Below are positions 4,551 to 20,533 of a stretch of DNA of 22,311 nucleotides, in pieces. The notes beneath the pieces were generated by a model, which saw only the letters and a list, made by a program, of their open reading frames with translations, was not told the DNA's origin and searched no databases. Source of the stretch: a virus. The stretch spans positions 1-22,311 of IMG/VR virus record IMGVR_UViG_3300025132_000343. One strand, written 5' to 3'. A program made the translations under genes and the position numbers. Position 1 is the stretch's first letter. The number at the start of each line of letters is the position of its first letter.

Positions 4551-4879
4551 CAGCTTGTCTCTACACCGAACATGTTAAAGCTAAGGCCAGTGCTACTTGC
4601 GTACACCTTGACCACATCGCTTTGATTGAGTGTCAGTCCTAACACAGCAGAAAATGTATCTGTAGCTGAGACTGATTTATCATAATAAATAAACTGTTTG
4701 TTGTCTGCTCCTGCGCCTGCAACATGGACACTTAGTCTAAATGTCAGTGCGCCAGAAGTGCGGTTGCATACATTGATAGAACTAACGGTGGTCTGATTTA
4801 GGTTAGGCACCGTGTACAACGTAGTTGTTGTCGTGGCGGACGGGTCAAGCTGACCAAGAACCTTGATGACATCAGCCAT
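4550..4879 (-). CDS. Small conserved phage tail-accessory protein (109 aa)
   Basis: I place the start at the ATG at 4879 (MADVIKVLGQLDP). A GTG three codons upstream would also fit, but the ATG gives the usual family-like N-terminus. The protein is Thr/Ser/Val-rich and looks all-beta: TTTTTLYTVPN, SSINVCNRTSGALTFRLSVH, then a C-terminal strand pair ending SFNMFGVETS. I recall similar proteins (KVLGQ-xPxATT-LYTVP) beside nozzle or fibre genes of marine phages and cyanophages, without known function. It overlaps the upstream small gene by 8 bases and is followed by a TGATG junction with the 768-aa gene. A virion structural role, perhaps decoration or fibre-associated, is inferred. Confidence 0.72.
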   Translation of the reverse strand: MADVIKVLGQLDPSATTTTTLYTVPNLNQTTVSSINVCNRTSGALTFRLSVHVAGAGADNKQFIYYDKSVSATDTFSAVLGLTLNQSDVVKVYASSTGLSFNMFGVETS

Positions 4880-5069
4880 TGCCTGCACCCATCAGCAAGA
4901 ACTGAAACCGGCGCAGGGCCAGTGACGAATCCTTGTTTGTCTTGTTTGTGTTGCCTTCTACAGTTGACGATATATCTTGTAGCGACTGCTCTATCGATCT
5001 TCTGGCAACCTGCTCATTTTCCCGCTCGTACTCTGCGCTGGCTACTGGCAGTGTCGTGTATTTAGGCAT
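4872..5069 (-). CDS. Small phage protein of unknown function (65 aa)
   Basis: The start MPKYTTLPVASAEYEREN overlaps the upstream stop by 8 bases and its stop overlaps the next gene, so it lies in a tightly coupled chain. Residues about 13-40 form a charged, probably helical segment with SIEQSLQDISSTVEG. The C-terminus is LALRRFQFLLMGAGNG. I recall MPK-TT-P N-termini in small genes between the nozzle and internal-protein genes of marine podoviruses, with no assigned role. It has no signal peptide or catalytic motif. The overlaps and position are the main support. Confidence 0.62.
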   Translation of the reverse strand: MPKYTTLPVASAEYERENEQVARRSIEQSLQDISSTVEGNTNKTNKDSSLALRRFQFLLMGAGNG

Positions 5070-5286
5070 AAGTGTCTATTGCCCTACCTTTCGTGGCATC
5101 AGTGGAGGGGGTGGTATCAACGGATGTGGGCTGGAATCTGACCTTCGCCGCATCCAGAGGCTGTTGAGAATTGCTCAAAGTGGTGGGATCCATAGCAGGA
5201 TTAGCCGCACCCGCCACGATACCCGTAGGCTTCTGCATCATGTTGGGCCACCTAATGCCGCCCACCTGTAAAGGGTCACTAGCCAT
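5062..5286 (-). CDS. Small phage protein of unknown function (74 aa)
   Basis: The gene starts at 5286, eight bases after the nozzle stop, with an AGGAT ribosome-binding sequence just upstream. The protein begins MASDPLQVGGIRWPNMMQKP and is rich in Pro, Thr and Asp (NPAMDPTTLSNSQQPLD), with little predicted secondary structure. Its stop overlaps the next start by 8 bases. No motif is recognised. It may be a short virion-associated or assembly protein, and support comes from the operon position and the ribosome-binding site. Confidence 0.58.
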   Translation of the reverse strand: MASDPLQVGGIRWPNMMQKPTGIVAGAANPAMDPTTLSNSQQPLDAAKVRFQPTSVDTTPSTDATKGRAIDTYA

Positions 5287-5294
5287 ATACTATC

Positions 5295-7145
5295 CTATCG
5301 GCGTCCATCCGTTCTAACATCAAATCGTAAATCACCTAACGTCCAGCCATAACCTGAGCCATTGCTGGATATTTTAATAATCATCTCCCGAGTTCTGGCC
5401 CTGAGATGGAACTGGCCCGTGGTGCTCTCTATGGTGGCTGTGTCCAAAAGGGTCTCGCTACTCAGCGGAAAGTCCCTGCCCTTGACCTCAAGGGACAGGT
5501 CAACAGCCGCAGAGTTGCCCCTAAAGGTAAAGTCAGGTATCACCCGCCGAACCGCCGCAAACTGCTCGCCATCACCCAAGCCAATGCCGCCAGAGGCAAC
5601 AAACGCATTTAGAGGCTCGCCGTCAGCCGTGTGGCCGATCTCATGTGTGTAAAGATAGTTGTCGCTAGTCAGGCTGTTTGACGCGGCAAGCGGGAACTCT
5701 TTGGTCGGCGCATGGATAAACGCACCACGATCCAGTGTGCCTATAGACCAATTGTCTTCTTGGTAGTTGTATGTGACATAGTTCGTGATGTCTGCGCTTG
5801 GGGTTCCCACTGGGTAATACCAAGTTACCTCTGAGTCATCAGGGTTTGTTGTAGCGTATATCTTAAATCTCTGCTGGAACTGAAGATTGGAAAAGACATG
5901 GTCCAACACGGAGCAGGGCAGTCTTTGCACCGAGCCGCGATAAACATAGAACCCCTCCCTATCCATGAAAAACACAGAGTCAGCCGCCGCAACCCCAGCC
6001 TTGGGCGAGATCATGCTAACGTTCTCTGCTACCGGAGAGAATGAGTAAATAAACGGAGCGCCGACAAAGCGCATGGCTTGAATGCCTACATCCGTAAATA
6101 CTAGTATTTCCTGACGAGTCTTGATCGCCCCGACAATCGTTGTCCCTGTAGAGATAACCTGACCGCCAGCACTATTCGTTGCTGTTGGCGTCCAATCTAC
6201 CGCGTTCTCTTGGTCAGACCAGCGAATGAACAGCGGGTCTAGGGTTGACGACCCAATCGGGTTGCATCCAAAACAAATAACGTGCCTGTCAATGTCAGAC
6301 ACCATGACTTGAAGCGCCTCAACGGGAGTGTCAGATGCACCACCCAAGCTGGACAGGGCCACCGCTCTGGTTGTCAGACCACTGCTCTCATCCCAGAAAT
6401 AAACAGAGCTACCTCTAGGGTTGAATATAAGGTCATCGCCAAATGCGTCCTGACTGTACAGGCGTAGCTGGTTTGACGAGGTAATTGCTACAGACTCGCC
6501 AAAAGTCCCAGCACCCCACGCCCCCACACCCCAACCTGTACTGTCTACATAAAAGTTGGTGCCAGTATTAATTTGGTACGCGCCCACCGTAGAGCCGCCG
6601 CCATTACCAGAGTCACTGGAATTAGCCGTGACTGTCGCGCCAGCGGTGTCTTTCGCCGTGATGTTGTAGCTATTGGCGTTTACAATGACGCCGATTTGGT
6701 ACTCCTGATTGAGTACAGCGGCTGTCACATTGCCGCCCAATGACGCGGCACCAGAGTACGTCACAAAGTCGCCCTCTACAGCGCCGTGTGCTGTGTCTGT
6801 CACCACCAGCGTTGACGAGCCATTAGTTGCGGCAAAGGTTACATCGCCAGCAGAGGTGGTGGCCCTGATCGGAGTTACATCCGCTACCGTACCGCCTGAC
6901 TCCACATAAAACTTCAGGTTGGTACCGATACCCAGATACTTGTCACCGTCAGCCGCACCCCAATCAAATAATGACCGCGCTACGCCTTTGATCGCTGTGC
7001 TGACGTACTTTTGCCAGCCGCCAATTGTTTCGACACGGCCTTTTCTAAAACGAACCCTATCTGCGTCAAACCAGCCGGAATCGGCACTGTATTCTGTGCC
7101 TTCTTTATCGATTCCCGGCTTGAACTGTATCTTTGTTAAGGGCAT
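5295..7145 (-). CDS. Tail nozzle / DNA-stabilisation protein, P22 gp10-like (616 aa)
   Basis: I choose the ATG at 7145 (MPLTKIQFKPGIDKEGTEYS), which overlaps the endolysin stop as TGATG, over a GTG four codons upstream. The N-terminus, with GWFDADRVRFRKGRVETIGGWQ at about 24-45, is typical of phage stabilisation or nozzle proteins related in architecture to P22 gp10 (the tail hub that closes the DNA channel). Residues about 100-190 look like an inserted beta domain (VVTDTAHGAVEGDFVTYSG, NSYNIT). Later segments (WTPTATNSAGGQV, FMDREGFYVYRG, VTWYYP) fit beta-propeller repeats. The length of about 600 matches this class. The matching adaptors are encoded some 11 kb upstream. The role as nozzle is inferred from pattern and context; confidence is good. 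Confidence 0.82.
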   Translation of the reverse strand: MPLTKIQFKPGIDKEGTEYSADSGWFDADRVRFRKGRVETIGGWQKYVSTAIKGVARSLFDWGAADGDKYLGIGTNLKFYVESGGTVADVTPIRATTSAGDVTFAATNGSSTLVVTDTAHGAVEGDFVTYSGAASLGGNVTAAVLNQEYQIGVIVNANSYNITAKDTAGATVTANSSDSGNGGGSTVGAYQINTGTNFYVDSTGWGVGAWGAGTFGESVAITSSNQLRLYSQDAFGDDLIFNPRGSSVYFWDESSGLTTRAVALSSLGGASDTPVEALQVMVSDIDRHVICFGCNPIGSSTLDPLFIRWSDQENAVDWTPTATNSAGGQVISTGTTIVGAIKTRQEILVFTDVGIQAMRFVGAPFIYSFSPVAENVSMISPKAGVAAADSVFFMDREGFYVYRGSVQRLPCSVLDHVFSNLQFQQRFKIYATTNPDDSEVTWYYPVGTPSADITNYVTYNYQEDNWSIGTLDRGAFIHAPTKEFPLAASNSLTSDNYLYTHEIGHTADGEPLNAFVASGGIGLGDGEQFAAVRRVIPDFTFRGNSAAVDLSLEVKGRDFPLSSETLLDTATIESTTGQFHLRARTREMIIKISSNGSGYGWTLGDLRFDVRTDGRR

Positions 7146-7495
7146 CAGTACGTCCACATGACCGGCGTAGAAGATCGCTTGTCAACATGAACAAATGTCT
7201 TAGCCACCCCTATGCCGTTAAATCCCATCTCTATAGCCTTCCAGACAATCAGCATCCTCTCAGAGCCATTCTTAACCTGTATATCAGCGGCAATGCCATG
7301 CGCGTGAGTTCCCGGCTTTTCTTTCTTGGCCTCCAGACTGTGGCTATTTGATCTGTAACCGGAGGTGATAATGAACGGGAAACCGCAAGACTCTCGTAGC
7401 TCATCAAGATCCATGATGAAATCCAAATCCATCTCGTTTTCGCCGGTCTCCTGACAGTCGAAGTCGGACAGCTTGAAATACTTAAACTCTTTCAT
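7145..7495 (-). CDS. Endolysin, M15-type D-Ala-D-Ala carboxypeptidase-like peptidase (116 aa)
   Basis: This single-domain zinc peptidase of the peptidase M15_3 type would cleave peptide cross-links in peptidoglycan. Visible motifs are SGYRS (45-49), GTHAHGIAAD (62-71) giving H64 and D71, and FVHVD (101-105) giving H103. Together these make the expected His-Asp-His zinc site, and D105 could be the catalytic partner. The length is normal for phage M15 lysins. No signal peptide is present, so it would need holins to reach the wall. The ATG at 7495 overlaps the stop of the small membrane protein by 4 bases, placing it at the end of the lysis cassette. The segment LEAKKEKPGTH is typical of this family. 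Confidence 0.92.
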   Translation of the reverse strand: MKEFKYFKLSDFDCQETGENEMDLDFIMDLDELRESCGFPFIITSGYRSNSHSLEAKKEKPGTHAHGIAADIQVKNGSERMLIVWKAIEMGFNGIGVAKTFVHVDKRSSTPVMWTY

Positions 7496-7835: not shown

Positions 7836-8237
7836 TTACTTCTCCCTTGCTACTTGCTTAGTCTTCTCAAACGTTCTGAGACCGCCCAGTCCCAACATGC
7901 CAAGAAGCACGGTCAACAGGCTTTCCATCTCAAATACAGGTAGCGGAGGGGCGTCCACACCAGCAAATGTAATAACAAAAACAGCAATAGGCTGACCCAC
8001 AAAGTGCCAAGCCAAAGCAACGCCGCAAGTCCAGCCGACAAACGGCCTCCAGCCTGCGACAAACATTGACTTGTGTGCCGCTTCAGCCTTGTTAATCTCA
8101 ATCTGGCCCTTGGCAAGCTCTTGGGCATGTCGCTCCGACATCGTCGCAATCTCGTGCGCGAGCCTCGCCTTTTCGTCCGCATCCGGTATGAATTTATCCA
8201 GAAGCCCCGTAACTGGGCCAATCAGTGCTTGTAACAT
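7836..8237 (-). CDS. Holin of the GTA 3TM type (133 aa)
   Basis: The protein resembles the family known as holin of 3TMs for gene-transfer-agent release (GTA_holin_3TM). Such proteins permeabilise the inner membrane at lysis. The N-terminal half is a charged helix with KFIPDADEKARLAHEI and the segment GQIEINKAEAAHKS. It is followed by the family signature FVAGWRPFVGWTCGVALAW (about 59-77). Hydrophobic stretches at about 66-78, 80-92 and 105-120 give the three membrane segments, and the end LGLGGLRTFEKTKQ fits the family. A strong AAGGAGG ribosome-binding site lies just before the ATG at 8237. It leads a four-gene lysis cassette ending with the M15 endolysin. The family is common in alphaproteobacterial phages. 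Confidence 0.9.
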   Translation of the reverse strand: MLQALIGPVTGLLDKFIPDADEKARLAHEIATMSERHAQELAKGQIEINKAEAAHKSMFVAGWRPFVGWTCGVALAWHFVGQPIAVFVITFAGVDAPPLPVFEMESLLTVLLGMLGLGGLRTFEKTKQVAREK

Positions 8238-8246
8238 GACGCCTCC

Positions 8247-9218
8247 TTAGAATGTGGACAGTGCGACCCTCTTCCATGTGTTGGTTGCAACACAGACATA
8301 GATGTAGTCTGTGTCATATGCTATCTCGCCCTTGGTGCCTGACGCTGATGAATTAGCTGGCGTCTGACTGGTGTCGATCCTAATGTTGTCGCCAGTGGTA
8401 GCCAGCGCGTTAAAGGTGCCTGCGCCGGGGGTGGAAGCGCCTATGTTGGTGCCATCAATGCTACCAGCGTTGATGTCCACAGTAGGTAGTGTCGCCGTGC
8501 CTGTGGTGCTGAGCGTTGTGAACGCGCCTGTGCTGGCCGAACTAGCCCCAATCGTGGTGCCGTCTACAGCGCCGCCATTTACATCAATCGAAGAAAATGA
8601 GGACGATCCCGTCGAGGCCACGTTCCCTGTCACGTTTCCCGTCAGGTCGCCCGTCACGTTTCCCGTCACGTTTCCCGTCACATTGCCGGTGACGTTGCCC
8701 GTTACTGCGCCCGTGACATTTCCGGTGACGTTGCCCGTTAAGTTGGCGCTTACCGTTGTTGCTAACAAGTCAACAAAAACCTGCGTGACCGTGGCACCTG
8801 AGCCTGTGCCACTGAACTTCAGCACTGCATCTTTGCCGTTGGCAAGCTCAAAGTCATTTGAAGCGTTATATGTGCCTTGGAACAAAATGACAGATCGGCT
8901 TGACGACAAGCTATTACGAACAAATAAAATCTTCTCTGCATCATTAGGCGTCAGCCTGACATAAGCTGTGCCGCCAAGGTCTCCGCCATCGGTAAACTCA
9001 ATAAATTTGTTTCTACCGTTTGAGACAGCGCCGTCCGTGACGGGGATATCTGTTGGCGAGCCGGAGCTACCGGCAGAAGCTAGGGTCAACGACAGTATCC
9101 CGTTGACAGCCTGATCCAGAATGTCAAAGTTGGTATTGGTTGTATCGCCCCATGTACCAGACTGATCGCCTGTTGCGATCTTCTCTATGCCTAAGTTGGT
9201 TGTATATGTGCTAGTCAT
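8247..9218 (-). CDS. Tail fibre-like protein with NVTG repeats (323 aa)
   Basis: The N-terminus (TSTYTTNLGIEKIATGDQSG, GDTTNTNFDILDQAV) is the typical start of marine phage fibre proteins. Residues 159-200 are about ten tandem 4-residue units NVTG, LTG or AVTG. Residues about 211-275 hold two imperfect copies of a unit with DG-T-IGAS---G-F--L-TTG, another fibre hallmark. The C-terminus (GEIAYDTDYIYVCVATNTWK) matches the end module seen in many phage fibre and baseplate proteins. A trimeric beta-rich fibre contacting host receptor is the expected role. It follows the 259-aa repeat protein by 3 bp and precedes the holin. Receptor unknown. Confidence 0.85.
   Translation of the reverse strand: MTSTYTTNLGIEKIATGDQSGTWGDTTNTNFDILDQAVNGILSLTLASAGSSGSPTDIPVTDGAVSNGRNKFIEFTDGGDLGGTAYVRLTPNDAEKILFVRNSLSSSRSVILFQGTYNASNDFELANGKDAVLKFSGTGSGATVTQVFVDLLATTVSANLTGNVTGNVTGAVTGNVTGNVTGNVTGNVTGDLTGNVTGNVASTGSSSFSSIDVNGGAVDGTTIGASSASTGAFTTLSTTGTATLPTVDINAGSIDGTNIGASTPGAGTFNALATTGDNIRIDTSQTPANSSASGTKGEIAYDTDYIYVCVATNTWKRVALSTF
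8619..8744. repeat. Degenerate 12-bp tandem repeat encoding NVTG units
   Basis: About ten consecutive 12-bp units encode NVTG or near variants (NLTG, AVTG, DLTG) at residues 159-200 of the fibre protein. Codon use varies between units (for example gtcacgtttccc versus gtgacattgccg on the plus strand), so the protein repeat is older than any single slippage event. Confidence 0.9.
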
Positions 9219-9221
9219 GTT

Positions 9222-10001
9222 TTATGCCGCTATCTCTGTCCAATTCGGGTCTTGATTCGGTATGATCTCGTTCCATGCCACTACAGACCCACCTGAAGTG
9301 GCTCCTGTTGCCGCAACCCCTGTCGCCAAAACGCTGATCGCGCCAGTCGCAGACGCAACACCAACGCTACCTTGAAGTGACGGTGACGTAATCGCCACTG
9401 TAAGGCCCGCGCCCTCTGTAATTGTTACAGAGCCTACACCGCCCGCCCCTGCTATCCCGGTAACCTCTACTTGCCCGGCGGCTTCTACAGTTACTGAGCC
9501 AACGCCGCCTGTACCAGCAACACCAGTGACAGAAGCATTTGCTGGCCCCACAATCGTTACACTGCCAGCGTCACCAGCGGCGGCAACACCCGTCACCAAA
9601 CCGCCAGTTCCTAGCTCAAACGATATTTTTAGAGCGGTGTCCGCTGGTGTAGCGAAAGACTCTTCTGCAAAGCCCACGCCACCAAAAAACCCACCGCCTG
9701 CGCCCGTTGCGGTCATCGGCATGGTTGCCGAAACGCCAGTTACAGAGACATTTTCAGGCAAAGATGGAATAGCTGTGCCTACAGCGCCTGTGGCTCCTAC
9801 TCCAGTGACACCTACACCAATAGAAAAGAGCACCTGACCAACGGTGGCTGTTGCTTGTAGACCTGTGACTACAGCGTCTGCGGCCCCATTTACAGATACA
9901 CTGCCAACACCTCCAGTGGCTGACAGCCCTGTAACACCAACAGGCCCAGCATCAGTATCCGAGCCAAATGGAAAGGCTGAAAACGCACTTGTGCTTGGCA
10001 T
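9222..10001 (-). CDS. Repeat-rich virion structural protein, VTGV-type (259 aa)
   Basis: Most of the protein consists of imperfect units of the form VTG[VIL]xATGxVGxVx[VI] with a period near 18-20 residues, and is extremely rich in Gly, Ala, Val and Thr. There are no charged stretches and no signal peptide. It reads as a run of short beta strands, suited to a fibre or tail appendage. Residues about 104-130 (GGGFFGGVGFAEES) interrupt the pattern. The C-terminus VAWNEIIPNQDPNWTEIAA is a short module that I recall ending phage structural proteins of this type. The start is in a TAATG overlap with the coiled-coil gene. The exact place in the virion is unknown. Confidence 0.75.
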   Translation of the reverse strand: MPSTSAFSAFPFGSDTDAGPVGVTGLSATGGVGSVSVNGAADAVVTGLQATATVGQVLFSIGVGVTGVGATGAVGTAIPSLPENVSVTGVSATMPMTATGAGGGFFGGVGFAEESFATPADTALKISFELGTGGLVTGVAAAGDAGSVTIVGPANASVTGVAGTGGVGSVTVEAAGQVEVTGIAGAGGVGSVTITEGAGLTVAITSPSLQGSVGVASATGAISVLATGVAATGATSGGSVVAWNEIIPNQDPNWTEIAA

Positions 10002-10231
10002 TATTTATCGGCCTTTGAATCTATCTTGGCTTCAATTGTGTCGAGCTTCTCAAAGATGCGCTGTATGTCATGCCGAAACTCGTCCCGTCTGACATAGTCA
10101 CCGGCAACACGAATCTCTATCCCACTAACATTCGCCTCCAGCCTCCTGACGGAGTCCCATAGAGTCTTCATAAGCCACCCGAAAACACCTGCACCGAGGG
10201 TAATGATTGTGTTAATCATGCCTTGGTCCAT
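10001..10231 (-). CDS. Small membrane-anchored coiled-coil protein (76 aa)
   Basis: Residues about 5-24 (MINTIITLGAGVFGWLMKTL) form a probable transmembrane or amphipathic helix. The rest is charged and helical with YVRRDEFRHDIQRIFEKLD and ends IEAKIDSKADK. Small proteins with YVRR-[DE]-F---I--I---LD---KADK are common in phages, often near holins, and have been compared to haemolysin XhlA-like membrane proteins; function is not settled. A GAGGG ribosome-binding sequence precedes the ATG at 10231, seven bases after the upstream stop. Following a second TM/coiled-coil gene, it belongs to the envelope-directed block. It could help lysis or anchor another protein. Confidence 0.75.
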   Translation of the reverse strand: MDQGMINTIITLGAGVFGWLMKTLWDSVRRLEANVSGIEIRVAGDYVRRDEFRHDIQRIFEKLDTIEAKIDSKADK

Positions 10232-10238
10232 ACTACCC

Positions 10239-10709
10239 TCACTCTTCTGTGTTTAGTGGGTTGTCTAGGATTCGCTCTATGCGCTCTTCTAAATCATCAC
10301 GCATACTTCTTAGCTCGTTGTTAATATCCCTAAGACTATCGTTTACTCGCTCCTCAAGCGCGTAAACATCATCCCTAAGCTCTCTGGTGGCTTCGGCAAC
10401 TGTGTCATCTGTGCTCCGCGCTATGGACTCTACAACGTCTATATCTGCCTGCAGACGGTCTAGCTCCCTTTCAAGGGCCGTGGTCAATGACTCAACATTG
10501 CCCATCTTCGTGTCGATCACAGCTAGGGCCTCATCATAGGCACTAAAATCAGGCGAGACGTACTCAGTTACAGCCTGCTCGGCAGTCAATAGGCGCTGAT
10601 ACAACTCAAAACCACCCCACATGGCGGCTAAAATGCTACCTAGAAACGGTATTGCAAGCAGTAACTTACCGCCCGAAACCTTTAATCCCGCAAATTCTAT
10701 TTCTGCCAT
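10239..10709 (-). CDS. Membrane-anchored long coiled-coil protein (156 aa)
   Basis: A hydrophobic segment at about 15-35 (KLLLAIPFLGSILAAMWGGF) is followed by a long acidic heptad-like region from about 60 to 150. That region includes ALERELDRLQADIDVVESIA, ELRDDVYALEERVNDSLRDI and ELRSMRDDLEERIERIL. No Cys is present. The design, one N-terminal membrane anchor plus an extended coiled coil, is like inner-membrane spanins (i-spanins), but the gene is 2 kb from the holin and has no embedded o-spanin. It overlaps the 607-aa secreted-protein gene by 13 bases, so the two are probably co-translated. Spanin, scaffold for the secreted proteins, or virion-associated tail protein are all possible. Confidence 0.75.
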   Translation of the reverse strand: MAEIEFAGLKVSGGKLLLAIPFLGSILAAMWGGFELYQRLLTAEQAVTEYVSPDFSAYDEALAVIDTKMGNVESLTTALERELDRLQADIDVVESIARSTDDTVAEATRELRDDVYALEERVNDSLRDINNELRSMRDDLEERIERILDNPLNTEE

Positions 10710-12520
10710 TGGATGTCCACCAAATCTTTATATGTGTCTGAGCCACCAATCCTAAGCACACCAAAGGGATCTACCCGTGGGGCGTTGTTTGGATAAACCT
10801 GAGTATTTTTGTAAAACTCGTCGCGGTCAGAAAGATTTACGTCTTGATATTGATTAAAGTCAGAATTATTAGATATCAAGAACACAGCAACGGATTGATC
10901 GGTAAAGCCACCTGTATCAGCCAAAGTGTCCAACTGATTATCAATACTCTCTTCTACCTGCGCTTGGCTCATAGTTTTGATAGCTACGGTGGCTTTTTGT
11001 ACCATTCTCTTTTCTTGAACAGTTGGCTCGTCAATCTCAAACCGGCTGAAGTCCGGCGGTTGTGAGCTTAAAAACTGACCAACACTTTGCCCTGTAGCTA
11101 ATGCATCATTAAAATCGTCTTCAAATTGCGCCTGTGCTGGTGGAGCTACATCGACGGAGGCCATACTGTCTGACTGCTGTTGTTGCGAAAGCTGTATCAA
11201 AGTTTTGCTAATGTTGGTTTGTTCTGTCGCCATCTGCCAATAGCTGTCAGCCCCTGACTGACTAATAACCTGCGCTATCTGTTGCATTGGCTTTGATTTT
11301 TGCGGCGCACTTCCTAGCTTGCTTGATTGTGTTGATTGCTCTTTAGCAAGAGACAGAGCTATTCCAACTACATCGACGGCAGGTCTTGCAATCGTGCGAA
11401 CAGACTCCGCGACAGGTTCTGATCGTGTTGTTGCCGCGATCTCCACAGGCACCACTTGCTTTTCTCTGACAGGAGGTTCTACCGGCACCTCTTGCCTGAC
11501 AGGCGCAATTTCTGGGACTGGACGCCTTGTAACCCTTTCGACTTCAGCAATTATTTCATCTGGCTCAGCTTGTCGTAGCTTCTTATCTTCTTTTATTGGC
11601 TCAACCTTTCTTTCCTTTTCAACGCCGGGCAAAGGCTCAACGATTTCTGTTGGCTCTTCAGCCACAGGGGGCGCATCGTTTATGCGAGGTCTAGCTTGGG
11701 GAGGTGGCTCGCCAAGCATTTCAGCTTCTTGAGATGTATCTTGGTACGCCTGCGGCGGCTCTGCCTGCTTCAATGCTCTAGGCTTGCCCGTTCTGTCGGG
11801 CTGGTCTAAATATAAGAAGTCGTCAGGAGAATCGCCGAAAACCACATTCGTTGCTTGCTCAGCGAAAGTCGGAGGCGTCGGCTCTACAACCAACGCCGCT
11901 TGTTGCGCGGCAAGTGCTTCTGCGTAACCCGCACAGGACGGGTCATTAAGGGGGTTTGAGCAATCAGGCAGAATAACAGGGTTAGTGTTAACAGGAGTAT
12001 AGATAGCTATCACAGATGGGCTTCGGACTGTTGGCCCGTAGTTACCAGCCCAGAACCCACGATCTATGCCCTCTATTTGCAAAGCAACAGCCTCATAAGC
12101 ACTGCCGAAATCATAAACCTCAGAACCACTAAAAGTCTGCCACTCTGTAAAAAAGTCTCGCTTGTTGAATACTTCACGGACATCTTCGTCGCCTGCAAGA
12201 TTGGTCACAGCAAGAAAAGCCTGTAGCTCATCTTGCGTTCCATTGGGGTCTGCACAATTACCACCAATCTGGTTGTTGCAGTTCATTAGGGCGTCAAACG
12301 ACCAAGTGAGCGTGAGTATCTGTAGCGGGTCGTACTGCGGCAAAAGCCCGCCAGCAGTCACCTCGCCAGTCTGAAAGCTGTATTTGTAAGTACCCGCCGC
12401 CGCATTAAACGCCACATTGTTTGACGATTGCGTAAGGGTGACTAAATTTTCACTGGTTAGGGTCTGACCATGCCCAGCGCCCGCACAAAACAAAAGCATT
12501 GCGCCAAGAAGACGCTTCAT
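10697..12520 (-). CDS. Exported protein with Cys-pair motifs and Pro/Glu-rich linker (607 aa)
   Basis: I choose the ATG at 12520 because it gives a clean signal peptide (MKRLLGAMLLFCAGAGHGQ, cleavage near 18-19). The longer reading to 12589 would bury it. Residues about 20-180 look like a beta-rich domain with a Cys pair (C81, C89). A short motif DCSNPLNDPSCAGY (186-199) follows, with Cys 187 and 196. I recall this motif from other marine phage proteins of unknown role. Residues about 210-380 are Pro/Glu/Lys/Arg-rich and low-complexity, like periplasm-spanning linkers such as that of TonB. The C-terminal part (about 410-607) is Gln-rich then compact, with AVFLISNNSDFNQYQD and VDPFGVLRIGG. Envelope location is supported; function is unknown. 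It starts one base after the upstream stop. Confidence 0.78.
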   Translation of the reverse strand: MKRLLGAMLLFCAGAGHGQTLTSENLVTLTQSSNNVAFNAAAGTYKYSFQTGEVTAGGLLPQYDPLQILTLTWSFDALMNCNNQIGGNCADPNGTQDELQAFLAVTNLAGDEDVREVFNKRDFFTEWQTFSGSEVYDFGSAYEAVALQIEGIDRGFWAGNYGPTVRSPSVIAIYTPVNTNPVILPDCSNPLNDPSCAGYAEALAAQQAALVVEPTPPTFAEQATNVVFGDSPDDFLYLDQPDRTGKPRALKQAEPPQAYQDTSQEAEMLGEPPPQARPRINDAPPVAEEPTEIVEPLPGVEKERKVEPIKEDKKLRQAEPDEIIAEVERVTRRPVPEIAPVRQEVPVEPPVREKQVVPVEIAATTRSEPVAESVRTIARPAVDVVGIALSLAKEQSTQSSKLGSAPQKSKPMQQIAQVISQSGADSYWQMATEQTNISKTLIQLSQQQQSDSMASVDVAPPAQAQFEDDFNDALATGQSVGQFLSSQPPDFSRFEIDEPTVQEKRMVQKATVAIKTMSQAQVEESIDNQLDTLADTGGFTDQSVAVFLISNNSDFNQYQDVNLSDRDEFYKNTQVYPNNAPRVDPFGVLRIGGSDTYKDLVDIQWQK

Positions 12521-12521
12521 C

Positions 12522-13430
12522 TTACATGCGCCTTTCTGGAGTGGGAATGCGCTCTGGATAGGTCTCCCACAAAGCCTTAGCCTCATCACCTATTTGGCCC
12601 TCAATCGGGCAAGGTGTACCGGCATCCATCATAGAAGACCAGACTCGGTAGTCTTGGCACATCAGGCTAACAGCCGCCACCCGCATACCCATGTCGTAAA
12701 GAGTCTTGCTGAGCTTAATTCGCTCGCAGTTCTTATCTCGTACAGACTTCCCAGTGGAAAACCCAAGGATCTGCGTCTGTACAGCCCCTGAAATCCCTGT
12801 AGTGCATAGGTCTTGGCTGTAGCTACTGCCAATCGATGGGGCTATCGCACTGGGCGGCGGCGAGTTTATATCCTGCGTAATTCTTTGAGTCGAATCACTG
12901 GTCGAGTTGCTCGTCGAATTGCTGTTGTTGGTGTTGACGTTGTTGTTGTTCGAGTTTACCTCGGACGTAGAGTTGCTGGTCTGATTAATCGTTGTGTCAG
13001 ACGTTGACAAGCTAACACTGTTGCTAGTGCTCGTATTCTGATTAATGTTCGTAGCAGTGCTGACCGAGGTGTTGTTGTTTGTGTTGTTATTGGTATTTGT
13101 GTTGATATTGGTGTTGTTGTTATTTGAGTTGGTGTTGTTAAAGTTTCGGATCAACCCGTTGTAATTCGTGCTGTTAATGTTTTGATTCAAGTTGGTGTTG
13201 TTATTGATCGCACTTGAAGTCGAGTCAATAACTGACGTATTCACGTTTGTGTTGACGTTCGTATTCGTAGACGTACCCGTATAATTCGTCGTATTCACGT
13301 TATTGTTGGTATTGGTATTGGTGGACGTATTAGTCGAGGACGACGTTGTGTTTATATTAGTCGTCGTTTCATCACCCAATGAGAAAGCGGGCCACAAAAA
13401 ACACGCAGTGATAATCAATAATTTTTTCAT
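12522..13430 (-). CDS. Exported Asn/Thr/Ser-rich repeat protein with Cys-containing C-terminal domain (302 aa)
   Basis: The ATG at 13430 gives a signal peptide (MKKLLIITACFLWPAFSLGD) and has a GGA ribosome-binding sequence in the short gap after the upstream stop. A longer reading to 13469 overlaps the chaperone gene and hides the signal. Residues 22-186 are almost entirely Asn, Thr and Ser with alternating TNTN patterns and two TNY-G sites. The C-terminal domain (about 200-300) is ordinary globular sequence with Cys at 209, 235, 258 and 274. Its motifs are NCERIKLSKTLYDMGM, VAAVSLMCQDYRV and GTPCPIEGQIG, a pattern I recall in other marine phages without assigned function. The low-complexity half could form beta fibrils. 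It lies in tight tandem with the 607-aa exported protein. Surface or periplasmic action is inferred. Confidence 0.8.
   Translation of the reverse strand: MKKLLIITACFLWPAFSLGDETTTNINTTSSSTNTSTNTNTNNNVNTTNYTGTSTNTNVNTNVNTSVIDSTSSAINNNTNLNQNINSTNYNGLIRNFNNTNSNNNNTNINTNTNNNTNNNTSVSTATNINQNTSTSNSVSLSTSDTTINQTSNSTSEVNSNNNNVNTNNSNSTSNSTSDSTQRITQDINSPPPSAIAPSIGSSYSQDLCTTGISGAVQTQILGFSTGKSVRDKNCERIKLSKTLYDMGMRVAAVSLMCQDYRVWSSMMDAGTPCPIEGQIGDEAKALWETYPERIPTPERRM
12873..13367. repeat. Low-complexity Asn/Thr/Ser codon tract
   Basis: About 495 bases encode residues 22-186 of the exported protein. On the plus strand the tract is dominated by gtt, gtg and att trinucleotides in irregular order. Codons for Asn and Thr are mixed (aat/aac, act/acc/acg), so this is selected protein composition and not a simple uninterrupted microsatellite. 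The tract keeps frame throughout. Confidence 0.9.
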
Positions 13431-13444
13431 GTGATTTCCACATT

Positions 13445-13960
13445 TTACGGCTTTGGCTTTTCGGGCCATGTAATGGTGCTGGGAAAATCTGTCTGTTGTG
13501 GCACATCACGCAAAGCCTGCCTGTACTTTGCCATATCGTCTGACATGGTTACGTCTGAAAGGCCATAGTGATCTGTCTCCGTTAACAAAAGATCGCGCTT
13601 AGAGCGTTCTAGGGCGGCTAAGGACGAGGTATTTGCCGCATCGTAGGCGTCTTTCTGGGCCTGTACGGTTACAGTGGTTTCGTTGCCCTCATCATCAGTC
13701 TCCGTGTACTCAGTGAACATATCCTGCTCAGTCCATGCGTACACCCAGTTGTCATCAGAGTCTTGTACCGCGCCGTTGCGTACAACAACTTTATAGTCAC
13801 CAGAGGGCGCTGGCTTAGGTGATTCCAGCACTGGATCGACATTCAAGGCGTCAAAAGTGCTTTCATTCCAGACTTTTGGAAAGCTCATATTTTTGTTTTC
13901 AGCTTTCAACTCGGCGTCTGTCTTGATTTCGCCGCTAGTTCGATTTCTGTATTCAGACAT
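13445..13960 (-). CDS. Tail assembly chaperone-like protein (171 aa)
   Basis: The C-terminal third carries the well-known pattern of phage tail assembly chaperone-type proteins. It has RSKRDLLLTETDHYGLSD and then VTMSDDMAKYRQALRDVPQQ, ending FPSTITWPEKPKP (about 117-171). This corresponds to the R--LL--TD---L-D--M----YRQALRD-P-Q--FP--I-WP-KP signature. The N-terminal part (MSEYRNRTSGEIKTDAELKA, about residues 1-20) resembles a short domain often found before it. A central acidic region contains TEYTETDDEGNETTVTV. Proteins of this type accompany fibre genes and are thought to help fibre or tail assembly. It sits just after the modular 679-aa protein (11 bp gap, AGGA ribosome-binding sequence). 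Confidence is high for the family. Confidence 0.87.
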   Translation of the reverse strand: MSEYRNRTSGEIKTDAELKAENKNMSFPKVWNESTFDALNVDPVLESPKPAPSGDYKVVVRNGAVQDSDDNWVYAWTEQDMFTEYTETDDEGNETTVTVQAQKDAYDAANTSSLAALERSKRDLLLTETDHYGLSDVTMSDDMAKYRQALRDVPQQTDFPSTITWPEKPKP

Positions 13961-19673: not shown

Positions 19674-19943
19674 TCACCAGTTCTTGCAAGACCAATAACG
19701 AGCAGACATCTTGCTTGGCGGCTTGGAGTCGCACTTGTGTCTCGCACGGAAAGACTTGCGCCGTCCCGGCTGGCTCTTCTTGATCTTCATATTCTTGTCG
19801 CCATAGCGGATGATTTTCTCTTTCCCGCCCTCACACGCCTTGACCACAAACTTCTTTTTAGGATGGCTAGGCGTTCGCTTTGGCTTGTTGCACGACATGG
19901 ACTTTTTGTTGACCTTGCCGCCTGCCTTGTAATACATGCGCAT
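19674..19943 (-). CDS. Small basic Cys-containing protein with ARYWSC motif (89 aa)
   Basis: The protein is strongly basic and ends RRKSFRARHKCDSKPP then SKMSARYWSCKNW. The central segment is VVKACEGGKEKIIRYGDKNM. Cys at 18, 37, 71 and 86 could bind a metal. I recall KEK-IR-G---M-IKKS---RR-SFRARH-C-----ARYWSCK-W as a widely shared phage protein, with function unknown. The start is in a TAATG overlap with the upstream gene. The position between capsid and connector genes, plus its charge, suggests a virion or packaged-DNA-associated role. Confidence in the gene is high. Confidence 0.78.
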   Translation of the reverse strand: MRMYYKAGGKVNKKSMSCNKPKRTPSHPKKKFVVKACEGGKEKIIRYGDKNMKIKKSQPGRRKSFRARHKCDSKPPSKMSARYWSCKNW

Positions 19944-20197
19944 TACTTGCGATGCCTCGCTGTCTTCTTGGCAATCCGCTTGGGTTGCTTTGAATGTTGC
20001 TTGCCTTTCTTGGTATCTGCGCGTTTTTTCCGCGTAGTCGCGGCATATTCCTTGGATGACATGGACTTGATGGCCTTCTCAGGAAGGTAACGCTCGCCAG
20101 TAGCTTTTGCACCCTGAGTGCTGGGCTTGCCAGACTTAGTGCGCCACTTTTGTTTAGTCCACTTCTTGAGGGACTTCTGCGATTTTTTAAGAGCCAC
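19943..20197 (-). CDS. Small very basic protein, DUF5872-like (84 aa), GTG start
   Basis: It starts at a GTG (20195-20197) inside the end of the preceding gene, an 11-base overlap. No ATG in frame fits. The protein reads MALKKSQKSLKKWTKQKWRT then KSGKPSTQGAKATGERYLPE and KAIKSMSSKEYAATTRKKRA. This TKQKWRTKSGKPS-----GERYLP-KAI pattern is, as I recall, the DUF5872 family found in phages and large viruses. Charge is extremely high (about a third Lys/Arg). Function unknown. It ends in TAATG with the next gene. Confidence 0.78.
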   Translation of the reverse strand: MALKKSQKSLKKWTKQKWRTKSGKPSTQGAKATGERYLPEKAIKSMSSKEYAATTRKKRADTKKGKQHSKQPKRIAKKTARHRK

Positions 20198-20321
20198 GCT
20201 TAGGCTTTTTCTTTTTGGTCAGGGTTTTTTCGATCCTATCTGCCTGACCTGCATGTGTCTTAGATGCCTTCCTAAGCTCTCGGATCATTTTGCGCTTTGC
20301 CGCATCAGTAAATTCAGCCAT
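20187..20321 (-). CDS. Tiny basic protein (44 aa)
   Basis: This gene fills the gap between the 70-aa and 84-aa genes. It begins at ATG 20321 in a TGATG overlap and ends at TAA 20187-20189. The protein starts MAEFTDAAKRKMIRELRKAS, continues as a charged helix, and ends TKKKKPKRGS. It is basic like its neighbours. No family is recognised. Support comes from the exact overlap with the upstream gene, the coding fit into the gap and the matching composition. Confidence 0.65.
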   Translation of the reverse strand: MAEFTDAAKRKMIRELRKASKTHAGQADRIEKTLTKKKKPKRGS

Positions 20322-20533
20322 CAGTCTTTATATCCTCCCCCAGCTTTCTTGTAAGCGGCGGCAACCATCTGCGCCTTACGCGCCGACCACTGCCCCGGCC
20401 TACCGCCCTTACCGCCGGCCTTTATTCGATTGAATATACGCTTGCGGAGTCCGGGCTTGGTGTAATTTCCCGCCTCATTGACGCGGGACTTGGACTTTTT
20501 AGTTTTACCGCCTTTCTTGTAATACTGTCTCAT
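20321..20533 (-). CDS. Small basic conserved phage protein (70 aa)
   Basis: The protein begins MRQYYKKGGKTKKSKSRVNE and continues AGNYTKPGLRKRIFNRIKAG, then GRPGQWSARKAQMVAAAYKK, ending AGGGYKD. The RVN-AGNYTKP-LRKR-F--IKA---G--GQWSARKAQ pattern is one that I recall as shared among marine phages and found in some bacteria; no function is known. The MR-YYK-GGK opening also appears at the start of the 89-aa protein, so the two may share a small module. The start is at 20533 with TAA/TGA-type overlap to the upstream gene. Confidence 0.78.
   Translation of the reverse strand: MRQYYKKGGKTKKSKSRVNEAGNYTKPGLRKRIFNRIKAGGKGGRPGQWSARKAQMVAAAYKKAGGGYKD

Follow-up and report, generated by a model that had tools for sequence, protein, structure and literature searches.

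An exported Asn/Thr/Ser protein with two alternating faces heads a conserved cassette of ocean phages and may serve a late envelope module

Why should a tailed phage export a protein built largely of Asn, Thr and Ser, and what might such a protein do to the cell that makes it? The question is raised by gene A (12522–13430, minus strand) of IMG/VR record IMGVR_UViG_3300025132_000343, whose positions 1 to 22,311 form the window analysed here (22,311 nucleotides). An earlier sequence-only reading took the gene to be phage-encoded, and the window agrees: it derives from a tailed phage with a capsid protein about 62–67% identical to that of HTVC023P-type podophages, with a holin (7836–8237, minus strand; PF11351, phrog_3427) and a peptidase M15 endolysin (7145–7495, minus strand; PF08291, phrog_894) 5 kb downstream of A. 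The window also holds ten 12-base repeats (8619–8738) coding GNVT units in a tail-fibre-like protein (8247–9218), three small, very basic proteins on the minus strand between the capsid and tail genes (19674–20533), two of which start alike (MRMYYKAGGK and MRQYYKKGGK), and, at its left edge (164–234), a 33-base tandem repeat of 2.2 copies with a 97% match.

Gene A runs on the minus strand from an ATG at 13430 to a stop at 12522–12524, and its 302 codons (12525–13430) specify a signal peptide (residues 1–20, MKKLLIITACFLWPAFSLGD; 13371–13430) without a valid lipobox, an Asn/Thr/Ser tract (residues 21–186; 12873–13370) and a C-terminal region (residues 187–302; 12525–12872) that starts just ahead of SPPPSAIAPS and whose folded part, about 207–295, carries Cys 209, 235, 258 and 274. 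Export had been proposed from this protein alone; a signal-peptide-like N terminus is found in this protein as well as in virtually every complete relative. Among 107 A proteins, none has a lipobox and 105 have an even mature Cys count. The suggestion that the C-terminal part acts as an anchor fares less well, with a hydrophobic C-terminal segment in 9 of the 107 relatives but none in the A of the window. The profile phrog_20531 (function unknown) matches residues 132–275 (E = 1.3e-13) and represents the same domain, although neither the tract pattern nor the gene order set out below is described there; A fits no known family beyond it. We take a Pfam match to Lin-8 (E = 4e-4, below the cut-off) for a composition artefact.

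The secreted prion-like composition had been called unusual, but the protein is no isolated case: its C-terminal domain is encoded in at least 591 viral contigs. These relatives include the Pelagibacter phage isolates HTVC115P, 033P, 202P, 023P, Mosig and Baldr and the Roseobacter phages CRP-810 and CRP-207. A remoter one occurs in Achromobacter phage JWAlpha, an N4-like phage in which the gene (L087:5422–6336) lies away from the late genes and a Gly/Asn/Gln-rich tract replaces Asn/Thr/Ser. As for the domain itself, its four cysteines are invariant in a 47-sequence alignment, and AlphaFold (47 sequences) folds residues 207–295 into a β-hairpin plus four helices (block pLDDT 73–96), in keeping with the compact four-Cys domain first perceived in the letters. 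No PDB structure matches this fold at E ≤ 0.001, leaving no convincing relative among solved structures, and BFVD returns uncharacterised phage proteins only. A bacterial origin finds no support: 385 sampled alphaproteobacterial genomes virtually lack the domain (two weak matches apart from the query MAG), and the genome_contigs matches, from marine bins and single cells, look like contigs of phages.

The tract itself comprises 166 residues, with 34% Asn, 25% Thr and 17% Ser; the remainder is mostly Val, Ile, Gln and Asp. The description 'almost only' Asn, Thr and Ser is thus slightly strong for a sum of 76%, although the enrichment is real, the densest 100-residue stretch reaching 79% of these residues against 46% for the window's next protein. 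More telling than composition is order. Asn shows a lag-2 autocorrelation of z = 5.2, and testing for two faces by parity yields z = 8.2, a value reached by none of 5,000 shuffles, so that the alternating polar pattern already perceived lies far beyond chance. One face holds 26 of the 29 Ser and 35 of the 57 Asn, the opposite face 34 of the 41 Thr and 11 of the 17 Val/Ile, and four other proteins of the window show no parity signal in their Asn/Thr/Ser-rich stretches. Every one of the 79 relatives with tracts of at least 80 residues has a parity z above 3.8 (median 10.5). Pooling 20 tracts reveals Asn enriched at each even lag and depleted at each odd lag out to 30 residues, with Thr and Val/Ile sharing the face opposite Asn. 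By these sequence tests the tract is an alternating polymer with two faces, its Asn/Ser parity set against a Thr/Val/Ile parity.

Nor does this order look like the residue of recent repeat expansion. Codons are mixed (Asn as 37 AAC and 20 AAT; the four Thr and six Ser codons all in use), no 12-mer within the tract occurs more than twice, and dN/dS in the tract is 0.03–0.06 against the four closest relatives and 0.04–0.10 in other close pairs; together these rule out an origin by microsatellite slippage. As judged from these ratios the tract is under purifying selection that keeps the sequence itself, beyond its composition, which strengthens the earlier notion that the composition is selected. 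An N-glycosylation array was also ruled out, there being 18 sequons against 23.8 in shuffles.

Alternation of this kind is compatible with β-strands, and the tract had been put forward as possibly fibril-forming. Q/N-rich prion-like domains are conventionally recognized by at least 30 N+Q in 80 residues. The window tract, with 37 per 80, passes this classic cut on prion-likeness, as do 75 of 96 relatives. Fibre formation is nevertheless no more than a possibility, because the monomeric tract is disordered in AlphaFold (pLDDT below 50 over residues 19–190, in a monomer prediction with 47 sequences, which cannot decide on assembly) and because a few homologues nearly lack it. Aligned homologues have tracts of about 10 to 490 residues beside a nearly invariant four-Cys domain; the tract is almost absent in L114 (ADSTVNYKNQ), in L085 (open frame 4851–5357) and in HTVC115P (about 18 residues), which is the finding that the sequence-only reading had named as its own refutation and which speaks against a fibre that is obligatory. 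Low pLDDT across the tract, its variable length and the confinement of conservation to the Cys domain would all suit a merely flexible, hydrophilic spacer that keeps that domain clear of the membrane or of the export machinery, with the Cys domain and the partner proteins as the active parts. A spacer, however, needs neither two-face parity over tens of residues nor a dN/dS of 0.03–0.10, and we regard this account as rather improbable.

The partners, genes B and C, had escaped the sequence-only reading. B (10697–12520, minus strand) encodes an exported protein of 607 residues and starts 1 base past the stop of A; it combines a jelly-roll head (about 30–176), a disordered linker (about 250–460) and a helical C terminus. 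C (10239–10709, minus strand), overlapping B by 13 bases, encodes 156 residues with a hydrophobic, transmembrane N-terminal segment and a coiled coil, ends in NPLN and draws weak coiled-coil-type Pfam matches; its relatives share the layout. B sits directly behind A in 49 of 50 loci. In the 72 loci with a complete B it follows A directly, mostly with spacings between a 4-base overlap and a 1-base gap. C, again with an N-terminal transmembrane segment and a coiled coil ending in NPL, lies downstream in 58 loci. The order A-B-C recurs in HTVC115P, 202P, 023P, 033P, Baldr, Mosig and phage S28C10. On the strength of this gene order, A heads a conserved cassette with B and C. We found no literature describing it, and it occurs in pelagiphages and in hundreds of uncultivated ocean phages; roseophages, too, have A. 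Beyond C in the window stand a 76-residue protein with a hydrophobic N terminus and a predicted coil (10001–10231, minus strand; phrog_462) and, between C and a tail protein, a 259-residue protein of VTGVxATGxVGSV-type Gly/Val repeats (9222–10001, minus strand), which has no Pfam or PHROG match and has similar proteins in 14 relatives.

B carries a signal peptide, in essentially all relatives as well, and has neither a lipobox (0 of 80) nor a C-terminal membrane segment. Its head is a predicted β-sandwich whose best matches among solved structures include carbohydrate-binding modules (CBM4, CBM16, CBM22), the Fbs glycan-binding domain and a lambda-type gpJ tail fibre domain, at E values of about 1e-5 to 1e-4, although the TM-scores are low. 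Heads are exchanged: in 57 pairs the tails are 60–70% identical and the heads unrelated, and the alternative head resembles NIDO (E of 0.002–0.006, below the Pfam cut-off). That A lies directly behind a tail fibre assembly chaperone gene (13445–13960, minus strand; PF16778) and that B has a head similar to one domain of gpJ, the lambda-type central tail fibre, might place both proteins in the virion, B as a receptor-binding protein and A as its stalk; Sec signals on the two proteins in virtually all relatives, and B heads that match no other protein of their loci, make this very improbable. Exported proteins with conserved tails and swapped heads are also what host-specific selection would predict if B bound a surface sugar or protein and so masked receptors or excluded rival phages. 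Genes for such exclusion, however, are usually expressed early or from a prophage, whereas the cassette lies on one strand among tail and lysis genes. Masking would also leave the link to endolysins, described next, unaccounted for, and we consider it distinctly improbable.

Of the 34 records with a recognised or annotated endolysin, 25 have its gene no more than 6 kb from A, against an expected fraction of 0.34; counted by lineage, grouped by hand, the figure is 11 of 19 against an expected fraction of 0.29 (p = 0.007). The endolysin family varies among clades (M15, T4-type lysozyme, GH19, amidase) while the cassette stays. In one clade (L067:9584–10339, L017, L027, L022 and L068) a class 3 lipase (PF01764) stands between A-B-C and the holin and lysozyme, and is possibly a further envelope-breaking enzyme. 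Beside the holin of that lipase clade there is also a small lipoprotein-like gene (MRYLICITLIAMSSC...; L025:9608–9835, with similar genes in about 7–9 loci), a possible o-spanin. The Rz family PF03245 was found above cut-off in none of 32 records, and no open reading frame of at least 40 residues with a lipobox was found in the window.

We therefore favour, tentatively, a reading in which A, B and C constitute a late envelope or lysis module in which A forms a β-sheet assembly, most plausibly for a step at the outer membrane; we prefer it to an adhesive fibre, a spacer, receptor masking or a virion part, though we put it at somewhat below an even chance. What supports lysis is the position of B behind A, the A-B-C order and its proximity to endolysins while the endolysin family changes, the class 3 lipase of one clade, the failure to find Rz or lipobox reading frames, the i-spanin topology of C, the even Cys count, the parity signal and the low dN/dS. 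At the sequence level the export signals, the cassette, the exchange of heads, the alternation, the selection acting on the tract, the invariant cysteines and the frequent proximity to an endolysin are established; late expression, β-assembly, docking and the outer-membrane step we infer, as follows. A and B would be exported by Sec, and C, seated in the inner membrane, would have its coiled coil in the periplasm. Stabilised by disulphides, the Cys domain of A could dock on C, on the tail of B or on both, and A tracts, through an Asn/Ser face and a Thr/Val/Ile face, might pair with those of further A copies into a β-sheet assembly. The swappable jelly-roll or NIDO-like head of B would bind a surface sugar or protein specific to the host, thereby fixing the assembly to the outer envelope. 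As long as the peptidoglycan is intact the complexes would be kept apart; once the endolysin cuts it, they could assemble laterally and disrupt the outer membrane.

Several observations weaken this lysis reading. No endolysin lies near A in HTVC115P, HTVC202P, Baldr, L035 and L036 (about 160 kb), L056 or L065, and none is annotated near A in Mosig; the AlphaFold tract is unstructured; and a hold on the outer membrane by B is hard to explain for a protein that has neither a lipobox nor a C-terminal membrane segment. Comparison with spanins cuts both ways. C has i-spanin topology (N-terminal transmembrane segment, coiled coil), A has conserved periplasmic cysteines, and the cassette is often near a holin and an endolysin; in contrast, A and B lack a lipobox and are SPase-I-type exported proteins, nothing matches PF03245 above cut-off, and there is a third component, one that bears a binding head. 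By the lipobox and PF03245 tests the cassette is not a canonical spanin. The periplasmic domains of unimolecular spanins are predicted to be mainly extended β (PMC6139136), but a unimolecular spanin such as T1 gp11 has a lipobox and a C-terminal transmembrane segment, of which A has the former in none and a hydrophobic segment in 9 of 107 relatives.

Length, too, bears on the choice: at 0.34 nm per residue the extended tract would span about 56 nm in the A of the window and more than 160 nm in L078, exceeding the periplasm, so that an external fibre fits better than a spanin. Such a fibre has a counterpart in the curli (type VIII secretion, CsgA/B/F/G) genes of other pelagiphages, which likewise specify exported, Asn-rich, possibly β-forming proteins in phages of the same hosts and for which a role in sibling capture or retention has been proposed (PMC7029224, PMC9599517). 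By analogy, A might polymerise on the outside of the infected cell, as functional amyloids do, with B as a sugar-binding tip, sticking cells or debris to the progeny for aggregation ('sibling capture') or virion retention; strand-compatible alternation over up to about 490 residues, Q/N-richness in most relatives, swappable glycan-type heads and the role proposed for curli all point this way. Yet the CsgG pore (PF03783) is found in none of 32 A-bearing records (several of them fragments; controls positive), which rules out the curli secretion route and leaves no known path across the outer membrane. Pfam detects no curlin repeats in the A of the window or in the long relatives L078 and L059, the partner genes are others, and some homologues nearly lack the tract. 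With the curli-bearing phage Melnitz, moreover, clumping was not seen (PMC9004378). We think this adhesive role unlikely. With CsgG absent and no lipobox, A is neither curli nor a canonical spanin.

Two further classes of polymer invite comparison. The tract resembles the Q/N-rich prion-like domains of phages (PMC5694896) in its N+Q content, although typical domains of this kind are not known to alternate strictly every second residue, and the A tract is exported and kept by purifying selection. Silk-type β-sheet polymers alternate every second residue, Gly against Ala/Ser, and so present two distinct faces; the A tract alternates too, but with Asn/Ser against Thr/Val/Ile. Within the envelope module that we favour, a more specific picture is possible, if doubtful: the two-faced polymer, part of a very common marine-phage machine, may form a phage-encoded β-fibre in or on the dying cell's envelope, held by an inner-membrane coiled coil and tipped with swappable sugar-binding heads, by which phages without a lipobox would breach the outer membrane.

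About 13% of surveyed phage genomes are without spanins, and of these 91 phages 20 have marine cyanobacteria as hosts (PMC6139136). For the question of how a phage with no recognisable spanin gets through the outer membrane, A-B-C offers a concrete candidate. If the tract does assemble, protein polymers would gain a new member that is exported, alternates in sequence and is held under strong sequence selection.
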